A stretch of DNA of 64,000 bases from Deltaproteobacteria bacterium (GTDB lineage: Bacteria; Myxococcota_A; UBA9160; UBA4427), in the NCBI GenBank assembly GCA_002691205.1, contig NZHD01000108.1, positions 1 through 64,000 of the forward strand, given 5' to 3'. The translations under genes were made by a program, and so were the position numbers. Of this stretch, positions 9,135 through 12,135 are shown piece by piece. The notes beneath the pieces are model-generated. The model saw only the letters and a list, made by a program, of their open reading frames with translations. It was not told the DNA's origin and did no database searches. Each line of letters opens with the position of its first letter. Position 1 is the first letter of the stretch.

Positions 9135-9210
9135 GGCCCGGTAGCTCAGTTGGTAGAGCACTCGACTGAAAATTGAGGTGTCGGCGGTTCGAGCCCGCCC
9201 TGGGCCACCA
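9135..9210 (+). tRNA. tRNA-Phe (GAA)
   Basis: A full cloverleaf can be drawn. The acceptor arm GGCCCGG pairs with CTGGGCC (one G-U), and the D arm is GCTC-AGTTGGTA-GAGC. The anticodon stem CTCGA/TTGAG carries the loop CTGAAAA with anticodon GAA. The T arm is GGCGG-TTCGAGC-CCGCC, the discriminator is A, and CCA is encoded in the DNA. It decodes UUC/UUU. No adjacent tRNA is seen; a VOC-family gene follows 106 nt downstream. Confidence 0.97.
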
Positions 9211-9316: not shown

Positions 9317-9691
9317 ATGAATCCAAAAGACCCTCGTCCTTTAGCAGCCCTAGGCCATGCTCGTATGTATGCGCAAGCCGTCGAACCAGCCGCTCGTCGA
9401 CTCGAGGCCATCGGCGTTCGACCCATTGTGATCAAAGAAGACTTCGCTGTTCTAGAACTCCGTGGAGGGACTCATATTGTTCTTCGCCAAAGTGAGGACG
9501 AGGAAGCCCTCAAAGCTCCTTTCGATCTCATGTACGACGATCTCGATGGAGCACGCGACCTCCTAAAGTTTGCGGGTTTCCAAGTGACCGAAATCGAACC
9601 AGGTCGGATTCACGATTCATTTTGGGCATCAGCTCCAGAGGGCTTTCGCATTCAGATCAACTCTTCTCATGCCGAAGGCCGTCCCATCTGA
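9317..9691 (+). CDS. VOC (glyoxalase/bleomycin-resistance fold) family protein
   Basis: A 124-residue single-unit protein with the beta-alpha-beta-beta-beta arrangement of vicinal oxygen chelate proteins: MYAQAVEPAARRLEAIGVRPIVIKEDFAVLELRGGTHIVLR, then DLMYDDLDGARDLLKFAGFQVTEIEPGRIHDSFWASAPEGFRIQIN. Metal ligands cannot be assigned with confidence and the substrate is unknown. I chose the ATG at 9317 because GGACGGAGG is correctly placed upstream; the frame extends earlier across the tRNA, which is not credible. Lies between tRNA-Phe and the trp leader. Confidence 0.7.
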   Translation: MNPKDPRPLAALGHARMYAQAVEPAARRLEAIGVRPIVIKEDFAVLELRGGTHIVLRQSEDEEALKAPFDLMYDDLDGARDLLKFAGFQVTEIEPGRIHDSFWASAPEGFRIQINSSHAEGRPI

Positions 9692-9752: not shown

Positions 9753-9781
9753 TTGACTCTGCGTCGGGCCTGTGAAACACT
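9753..9781 (+). promoter_or_regulatory. Promoter of the trpL-trpE(G) transcript
   Basis: TTGACT (9753-9758) and AACACT (9776-9781) are separated by 17 bp. The -35 is strong and the -10 weak. The expected start, about 7 nt after the -10, falls on or next to the A of the leader ATG at 9788, so the leader peptide would be translated from a leaderless transcript. Confidence 0.5.
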
Positions 9782-9787
9782 CCCGCC

Positions 9788-9838
9788 ATGGTTAAGAAAA
9801 ACTCTCAGAACAGACTTTGGTGGTGCTCCTCTCTCTAG
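9788..9838 (+). CDS. trpL: trp operon leader peptide
   Basis: A 16-codon frame, too short for most gene finders, encodes MVKKNSQNRLWWCSSL and ends in TAG. Tandem TGG codons at positions 11-12 (9818-9823) are the tryptophan sensor. When charged tRNA-Trp is scarce the ribosome stalls there, freeing the downstream antiterminator. No Shine-Dalgarno precedes the ATG, and the predicted transcript starts at or beside it, so initiation is probably leaderless. The peptide itself has no expected function. The tandem Trp codons, the paired hairpins downstream and the trpE(G) gene together make this call strong. Confidence 0.9.
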   Translation: MVKKNSQNRLWWCSSL

Positions 9839-9914
9839 CGAGGTGGCCTAAAGTCTTGCGCTCTGGCGCGGAGAGATTGAAATAGGCCGCCTCCTTGGGC
9901 GGCCTTCGTTTTTT
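9812..9914 (+). promoter_or_regulatory. Tryptophan transcription attenuator (pause, antiterminator, terminator)
   Basis: Four mutually exclusive segments can be paired. Pause hairpin: AGACTTT (9812-9818) with AAAGTCT (9850-9856), extended by GG/CC across a bulged T; it covers the first Trp codon and abuts the second. Antiterminator: AGGTGGCCT (9841-9849) with AGGCCGCCT (9884-9892), 9 bp with one G-U. Terminator: AGGCCGCC (9884-9891) with GGCGGCCT (9898-9905), loop TCCTTG, then TCG and six T (9909-9914). Segment 3 is shared by antiterminator and terminator, the classic attenuator logic. Confidence 0.92.
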
Positions 9915-9981
9915 CCGGAGTTCGCTGTTTCACCCGCGCATGCCGCTCAAAGACGGCTTGATACCTCGTAAGGGAAAAACA

Positions 9982-12135
9982 ATGGATAACGATCTTCCTA
10001 AACAACCTACGCCCTTTGTCACTAAGGGCCATATTCACATTGATGTCCACGTCGAAGAGGTCGAAGGCGCCCATGCCCTGGACCAACTCGCTCAAGCTCT
10101 CGATCGACGGCGCGGCGTGCTCCTCTCCTCCAGCTACGAATATCCCGGACGCTACACGCGATGGGACATGGGTTTTGTCGATCCGCCGGTGGTCTTCCAT
10201 GGCTCAGGCCGAGAAGCTCGAATCGAAGCCCTCAACGAACGGGGGGAGCTCATTGTCGAAAGAATCGCTTCACATCTTGAAAACGATGTATGCCTCGCGG
10301 ACTTCAATTTTTCACCCGGCGAGATCGTCTGCCGTGTTAAGGAGCCCTCCTCTCGTTTTCCGGAAGAAGAAAGAAGTCGCCAACCCTCTTTCTTTTCAAT
10401 CCTGCGCTCACTGATTGATCTCTTTGGCTCAGAGATGGATCCCCACCTTGGCTTCTATGGGGCCTTCGGATATGACCTCGCCCTCCAATTCGAGCCTATA
10501 CAGCAACGACTTGAGAGATCCGAGAGCACACGTGATCTCGTTCTCTACCTTCCCGACGAAGTCTATATCGTTGATCACCGCCAAGAATTCGCCGAAAAAC
10601 GGACATACACCTTTAAAATTGACGGGAAGTCTACGGCGGAGCTTAAAGGTGGAGGCACAAGCATTGAAGTCGCCGCTCCGGCCCGCGTAGAAAGAGGATC
10701 GGATCACAAAGCAGGCGCCTATGCGAATAATGTTCGCACGGCTCAGGAAGCTTTTCACCGAGGCGACCTTTTTGAAGTGGTCCTTTCACAAACCTTTCGA
10801 GAGCCTGCTGAAGCAGCCCCCTCAGAAATTTTCAATCGGCTGCGAGAGCGCAACCCTTCTCCTTATGGGTTCTTAATTAATCTCGGAGAAGGCGAACATC
10901 TCGTGGGTGCTTCACCTGAAATGTATGTCAGAGTCAATGGAAGACGAATCGAGACATGTCCCATTTCAGGGACCGTCCCACGAGGTCGAGACGCTGTTGA
11001 GGATGCCGAGAGGATCCGTGAGCTCATTGTCTCCAAGAAAGACGAATCCGAACTAACTATGTGTACAGATGTCGACCGGAACGATAAGTCACGCATTTGT
11101 GAGCCTGGTTCAGTCCGCGTCATTGGACGGCGTCAAATTGAGATGTACTCTCGACTCATCCACACCGTCGATCACGTTGAAGGGAAACTGCGTGCAGGTT
11201 TTGATGCTCTCGACGCCTTTCTCTGCCACACATGGGCCGTCACGGTGACTGGGGCCCCCAAGCCATGGGCCATGCAATTTGTTGAAGATCATGAAGCTTC
11301 TGCGCGAGCATGGTACGGAGGTGCGGTGGGCTTTGTAGGCTTCGATGGCAATATGAATACAGGGCTCACTCTTCGGACTGCACGAATCCATGGCGGCGTA
11401 GCTGAAGTACGTGCAGGAGCGACGCTCCTTTTTGATTCTGATCCAGAGGCTGAGGACCGAGAGGCCCACGTGAAGGCCTCGGCACTTCTCGACGCCATTT
11501 TACGACCGACTCCCGAAAAAATTGACATACCCAAAGTCCCCCAAACGGGCATTGGACGTCGGATCCTTGTGATTGATCACCAGGATTCTTTTGTCCACAC
11601 TCTCGCGAGTTACTTGTGCGAGACCGGTGCAGAGGTAACGACTTGGAGATTCGGTTTTAACGCTGAAGAATTAGATGAACTCAAACCGGACCTTGTCATT
11701 CTCTCTCCCGGACCCGGCTCACCCTCAGACTTTGATGTCTCAGGAACACTCGAGTTGCTGCAACAGAGAGGCCTTCCGGCTTTTGGCGTGTGCCTTGGAC
11801 TCCAGGGAATCGTGGAACACTTTGGCGGTACGCTCGACGTTCTCGACATCCCCATGCACGGTAAACCTTCGACGATCTCAACCCTTGGAGGCGAATTGTG
11901 GGAGGGGATCCCTGAGAAATTTCGGGCCGCTCGATACCACTCTCTCATTGCTCGACGTGAAACCCTGCCAAAGGAGCTACGCGTCACCGCTGAAAGCGAT
12001 GATGGGGTCGTCATGGCCGTAGAGCACGTCTCACTTCCTATTGCGGCAGTGCAGTTTCATCCTGAATCAATCCTGACCCGTGGAGAATTTGGACGAAACT
12101 TACTCGCTAACGTGGTTGAAAAACTCAGGGCATAG
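9982..12135 (+). CDS. trpE(G): Anthranilate synthase, fused components I and II
   Basis: Converts chorismate and glutamine to anthranilate, the first step of tryptophan synthesis. The 717-residue protein joins TrpE (about 1-500) to the glutamine amidotransferase TrpG (about 520-717). TrpE landmarks: FEVVLSQTFREP, LVGASPEMYVRV, ETCPISGTVPRGRDA, DESELTMCTDVDRNDKSR and YSRLIHTVDHVEG. TrpG landmarks: ILVIDHQDSFVHTLASYL, LSPGPGSP, the nucleophile loop FGVCLGLQGIVEHFGG, and VQFHPESILT with the catalytic His-Glu. I chose the ATG at 9982 (AAGGG upstream, after the attenuator T-run); earlier in-frame codons lie inside the attenuator. Fused TrpE(G) is known from rhizobia and some other bacteria. Expression is set by the upstream attenuator. 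Confidence 0.95.
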   Translation: MDNDLPKQPTPFVTKGHIHIDVHVEEVEGAHALDQLAQALDRRRGVLLSSSYEYPGRYTRWDMGFVDPPVVFHGSGREARIEALNERGELIVERIASHLENDVCLADFNFSPGEIVCRVKEPSSRFPEEERSRQPSFFSILRSLIDLFGSEMDPHLGFYGAFGYDLALQFEPIQQRLERSESTRDLVLYLPDEVYIVDHRQEFAEKRTYTFKIDGKSTAELKGGGTSIEVAAPARVERGSDHKAGAYANNVRTAQEAFHRGDLFEVVLSQTFREPAEAAPSEIFNRLRERNPSPYGFLINLGEGEHLVGASPEMYVRVNGRRIETCPISGTVPRGRDAVEDAERIRELIVSKKDESELTMCTDVDRNDKSRICEPGSVRVIGRRQIEMYSRLIHTVDHVEGKLRAGFDALDAFLCHTWAVTVTGAPKPWAMQFVEDHEASARAWYGGAVGFVGFDGNMNTGLTLRTARIHGGVAEVRAGATLLFDSDPEAEDREAHVKASALLDAILRPTPEKIDIPKVPQTGIGRRILVIDHQDSFVHTLASYLCETGAEVTTWRFGFNAEELDELKPDLVILSPGPGSPSDFDVSGTLELLQQRGLPAFGVCLGLQGIVEHFGGTLDVLDIPMHGKPSTISTLGGELWEGIPEKFRAARYHSLIARRETLPKELRVTAESDDGVVMAVEHVSLPIAAVQFHPESILTRGEFGRNLLANVVEKLRA

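Follow-up and report, generated by a model that had tools for sequence, protein, structure and literature searches.

The trpL-trpE(G) locus

The window analysed here, the whole 64,000-nucleotide stretch of a contig from Deltaproteobacteria bacterium (Myxococcota_A; UBA9160; UBA4427), carries on its forward strand a gene for a fused anthranilate synthase. This trpE(G) gene (9982-12135) encodes components I and II within a single protein of 717 aa, which scores 1046 bits against TIGR01815 (TrpE-clade3; cut-off 739) and 1087 bits against NF010081, contains the Pfam domains Anth_synt_I_N, Chorismate_bind and GATase, and has no second counterpart above the TIGR01815 cut-off in the window's whole genome. 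Its Shine-Dalgarno (SD) sequence, AAGGG (9970-9974), lies 7 nt 5' of its ATG. The upstream neighbour is a tRNA-Phe gene (gaa; 9135-9210, same strand; ARAGORN, Rfam), and in a same-genus relative (L083) tRNA-Phe stands immediately 5' of the trp leader. A 124-aa ORF (9317-9691), which has no Pfam or NCBIfam match, sits between tRNA-Phe and trpL in the window and is missing from this interval in L083.

Upstream of trpE(G), a short leader peptide ORF, trpL (MVKKNSQNRLWWCSSL*; 9788-9838, forward strand), runs from an ATG at 9788 to a stop codon at 9836-9838 with tandem Trp codons at 9818-9823, and no ribosome site precedes it, as the initial annotation had remarked. Three helices can form over the same strand of RNA. 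Strand 1 (AGACUUUGG; 9812-9820), which takes in the first Trp codon, forms a pause helix of 9 bp with 9848-9856; strand 2 (GAGGUGGCCUA; 9840-9850) pairs with strand 3 (9883-9893) in an antiterminator of 11 bp; and strand 3, used by both alternatives, also takes part in an intrinsic terminator of 9 bp (9884-9914; arms 9884-9892 and 9897-9905, T-run 9909-9914). The full leader folds into the pause helix plus the terminator, whereas the fragment from the stop codon onward forms the antiterminator instead. The 2:3 and 3:4 fragments each fold better than 1000 of 1000 dinucleotide shuffles; for the 1:2 (pause) fragment alone, 145 of 1000 shuffles fold as well. Strand 2 starts two bases past the stop codon, so that a terminating ribosome would mask it and a Trp-stalled ribosome would not, a placement that is textbook attenuator geometry.

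Judged from its sequence, the region 9753-9914 is a real, well-formed and complete trp attenuator. The initial annotation had read it as such, and the ATG, WW codons, stop codon, TTGACT, T-run and three helices were all recovered in place; the stems proved to be of 9-11 bp and not of the 8-9 bp that it had drawn. At the gathering threshold, tRNA-Phe is the sole Rfam match in the window, where neither Trp_leader nor RF02552 (RcsR1/rnTrpL) was matched; permissive sub-threshold Rfam matches in the window were dismissed as chance.

The promoter assigned to this leader consists of a -35 hexamer, TTGACT (9753-9758), located 35 nt 5' of the trpL ATG at a spacing kept in relatives, and an extended -10 element composed of TGA (9773-9775) and the hexamer AACACT (9776-9781), all on the forward strand. 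The two hexamers are separated by 17 nt. AACACT follows an xAxxxT pattern and is weak, with a 3/6 match to TATAAT; it retains the A2 and T6 found in relatives. From these elements, the transcript is predicted to start at A9788, the A of the trpL ATG.

Leaders of related trpE(G) genes and the start of the transcript

Upstream regions were read for the best 80 loci with close TrpE(G) relatives and for loci of the window's order, its phylum and a plasmid collection. Leaders with WW, WWW or W.W codons occur in the order (L083, L084, L002, L003, L004, L089, L093, L094 and L119), elsewhere in the phylum (L111 and L112), and in Binatia, Rokubacteria/Methylomirabilota, Chloroflexi-labelled metagenome-assembled genomes (taxon labels used as given), Acidimicrobiia, Nonomuraea and Alphaproteobacteria, including Sinorhizobium meliloti. 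Among the loci read, no trp leader was found upstream in Legionella, Sorangium and several others, and within the order it is also missing from 3 of 13 trpE(G) loci (L005, L025 and L049).

The distance between promoter and start codon is largely constant in these leaders. It was measured in 20 trp leaders with a TTGAC 5' of trpE(G) relatives, counting from whichever TTGAC is closest to the Trp codons. An in-frame ATG or GTG follows at exactly 35 or 36 nt in 17 of them; when the stretch from TTGAC to the Trp codons was shuffled, 0.57 +/- 0.75 such leaders were expected, with a maximum of 4 in 2000 trials. Two exceptions (L011 and L004) have their start codon at 39 nt, and in the third (L058) the rule chose a TTGAC within the leader, an upstream TTGAC standing at 36. 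Sixteen more leaders without TTGAC in the searched stretch fell outside this test; in several Binatia leaders among them, a TATAAT ends ~9 nt before the ATG. Aligned on the start codon, the TTGAC promoters have A at -12 in 14 of 17 and T at -8 in 11 of 17 (hexamer -13 to -8); that is, an xAxxxT -10 element common to the relatives lies 17 nt from TTGAC and ~7 nt 5' of the start codon. A similar TAnnnT motif is found in Streptomyces promoters, most strongly in those of leaderless transcripts (PMC8079986).

SD sequences are scarce before trpL. A ribosome site of at least 5 nt precedes 1 of 36 trpL ORFs versus 16 of 32 trpE(G) genes at the same loci, and anti-SD energies differ between trpL and its own trpE(G) with p = 1.7e-10, figures that, like the spacing count, come from related and hence only partly independent leaders. 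Apparent GTG starts at the predicted +1 were seen in L007, L009, L014, L027, L032, L033, L094 and L119, and such starts would suit leaderless initiation. The covariance model described below brought up the L119 leader (MIRTGSSARGWWRTFLSTP), which has its GTG exactly 35 nt downstream of TTGAC and belongs neither to that model nor to the spacing test; in the L119 genome, trpE(G) is divided between two contigs. As a positive control, the S. meliloti locus (L110) has a similar layout with TTGCGC at -37, and its trpL transcript starts at the ATG (PMC7298713).

The attenuator could be real yet not leaderless if transcription began farther upstream, at a second promoter, or ran on from tRNA-Phe or from the ORF whose end is at 9691, with trpL weakly translated in the absence of an SD. 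Both of these upstream features and the weakness of the -10 at 9776-9781 speak for such a start, which would not, however, explain the distance from TTGAC to the start codon that 17 of 20 leaders keep fixed despite differing in length. The common position of xAxxxT relative to TTGAC and the absence of the ORF between tRNA-Phe and trpL in L083 also argue against it, and an upstream start is considered improbable. The comparison strongly favours a leaderless trpL in the window, which is very probably the case; the probable leaderless leader of the initial annotation is supported by the 35/36-nt spacing and the scarcity of SD sequences before trpL.

The helices are also conserved. Over 27 leaders, 80.7% of antiterminator cells are paired, compared with 32-49% when the strands are slid, and 84.3% of terminator cells, compared with 31-62% when slid, a value that 0 of 500 shuffles reached; changes occur on both sides of both helices, although the segments were chosen by pairing, which biases these counts towards structure. 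The pause helix covaries between the window and L083, where AGACUUUGG:CCUAAAGUCU becomes GGACUUUGG:CCUGAAGUCC. Since strands 2 and 4 share strand 3 as their partner and GC-rich terminators look alike, the pairing over the 27 leaders indicates structure and is weak evidence of descent. Strands 2-4 indeed resemble ordinary GC-rich terminators, and a covariance model of the leaders (R1) matches such terminators elsewhere in the phylum: most true leaders score above 45 bits and many plain terminators fall below about 35 bits. Because R1 also picks up plain terminators, no further attenuators are claimed from it. One match (L136, 28 bits) was rejected as an attenuator, being a tRNA/terminator region.

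In the mechanism proposed for this locus, RNA polymerase would start at, or about 1 base from, the trpL ATG, and the leader peptide would be translated from a leaderless mRNA. When charged tRNA-Trp is scarce, the ribosome would stall at the Trp codons (9818-9823) and cover strand 1, leaving strand 2 to pair with strand 3 and allowing the polymerase to continue into trpE(G). When Trp is plentiful, the ribosome would reach the stop codon and cover strand 2, upon which strands 3 and 4 would fold into the terminator and transcription would end with the release of a short, ~127-nt RNA. We infer both the stalling and the Trp response from the layout of the leader. Regarding the released RNA, trpG ranked above 37 background starts among candidate trans targets, as scored by crude whole-length duplex energies, which ignore folding and make the ranking uninformative.

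Operonic trpE and the descent of the module

In the window's family, the trp operon is organized as lptD-trpE-trpG-trpD-trpC-trpF, and the operon of the window's own genome reads lptD-trpG-trpD-trpC-trpF, without trpE (G000:C99, L148 3239-8941; L152, L153). The locus could be read in 38 of the order's genomes, and operonic trpE is missing from 9 of the 12 among them that carry trpE(G) versus none of the 26 that do not (one-sided Fisher probability ~1.3e-6, a calculation that ignores shared ancestry); G004, G008 and G013 hold both genes. As the loss of trpE accompanies trpE(G), operonic trpE appears to have given way to the trpL-trpE(G) unit, and we infer that the swap was a replacement. The remaining chorismate-binding genes of the window's genome are pabB (above its cut-off) and a menF-like gene with a menD-like neighbour. 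By gene content, trpL-trpE(G) appears to be the only gene for anthranilate synthase component I in the genus, with the proviso that the window's assembly is 94% complete and may lack a further trpE. The unit also appears to be regulated apart from trpGDCF, an arrangement resembling that of S. meliloti with its split trp genes. Of the nine trpE-less genomes, G056 (L188) and G031 (L187) likewise yielded no trpG in the operon, so that in these two the fusion's own glutaminase domain may suffice.

It is highly likely, then, that 9753-9914 comprises the promoter and a ribosome-mediated attenuator of the single gene trpE(G), acting through a leaderless trpL, and that this unit replaced operonic trpE in the genus. 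How the unit arose is a separate matter. The initial annotation had suggested, with reference to rhizobia, that the whole module was either inherited from a common ancestor or transferred, and the recurrence of the module before trpE(G) in many lineages suits shared descent. The best TrpE(G) tree, however, groups the window with its own order and not with rhizobia: the window, a same-genus relative and five sequences from another family of the order form a group with 95% SH-aLRT support, and leaders are found on distant branches of the tree. AU tests reject neither a single clade for the order nor a grouping of the window's genus with rhizobia (p-AU 0.467 for the latter), so a rhizobial transfer is neither established nor refuted by them.

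If the unit came directly from an alphaproteobacterial donor, rhizobial or other, this would agree with its layout being the same in S. meliloti and in R. leguminosarum, with the patchy occurrence of trpE(G) among genomes of the order (13 of 80) and with its rarity in the phylum (11 of 284), and the AU value given above is compatible with it. The seven rows that include the window, all from its own order, nevertheless stand apart from the alphaproteobacterial rows in the best tree, and rhizobia are no privileged source, since the same layout also occurs in Binatia, Rokubacteria/Methylomirabilota, Acidimicrobiia and Nonomuraea; such a transfer is regarded as very improbable. Convergence is a stronger contender, if still a doubtful one, and concerns the origin of the leaders and not their mechanism: unrelated trp leaders could have arisen repeatedly before trpE(G), their likeness reflecting generic promoters, generic GC-rich terminators and a shared requirement for Trp codons. 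In its favour, the phylum holds many terminator-like model matches, a leader is absent from several trpE(G) genes, and the leader peptides cannot be aligned beyond their Trp codons. Against this stands the joint recurrence, before one gene family and on distant branches, of TTGAC-17-xAxxxT, a start codon at +1, a missing SD, Trp codons and a strand 2 close to the stop codon. A tentative reading, put forward with less than even confidence, is that several phyla share one ancient cassette, which regulates itself and is made up of the promoter, a leaderless trpL, the attenuator and the fused trpE(G); selection would hold its start codon at +1, and it would spread or survive by taking the place of trpE in ordinary trp operons.

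Known leaderless attenuators and significance

The logic proposed for this leader is that of the E. coli trp attenuator, in which stalling on tandem Trp codons favours the antiterminator over the terminator. The E. coli trpL (Rfam Trp_leader, RF00513) is leadered, has its own ribosome site and stands before an operon of five genes on which TrpR acts as an additional repressor.

Leaderless trpL ORFs are known before trpE(G) in S. meliloti (PMC7298713) and, from transcription start site data, before trpE in Streptomyces lividans (PMC8079986); the initial annotation had named the rhizobial case correctly and left S. lividans unmentioned. The closest known system is rnTrpL of S. meliloti (RcsR1, Rfam RF02552), which encodes the peptide peTrpL. 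Both loci combine a monocistronic fused trpE(G) with a short leader bearing tandem Trp codons and an antiterminator/terminator switch, and have trpD and trpC elsewhere. Unlike the S. meliloti leader, which scores 98.1 bits, the window falls below the RF02552 threshold; its leader has WW where that of S. meliloti has WWW, the strand spacing differs and the host belongs to another phylum. TrpL1 of S. lividans (MFAHSTRNWWWTAHPAAH) similarly joins a leaderless trp leader and a terminator to a monocistronic trpE, but its host is an actinobacterium. One fused Streptomyces trpE(G) that was read (L143) has no WW leader.

The leaderless trp attenuator is thus of a known kind, represented in S. meliloti and S. 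lividans, and what is new here is its conservation across phyla together with the apparent displacement of operonic trpE. Leaderless attenuators had hitherto been reported singly, in rhizobia and actinobacteria; a promoter-to-start spacing of 35/36 nt across phyla suggests that leaderless initiation is built into the control of trpE(G) and is no peculiarity of rhizobia. Where trpE(G) is present, the disappearance of trpE from the operon would represent the rewiring of a biosynthetic operon by the exchange of one gene for a self-regulated version and, if this displacement is true, closed genomes of the order would carry either operonic trpE or trpL-trpE(G), and rarely both.
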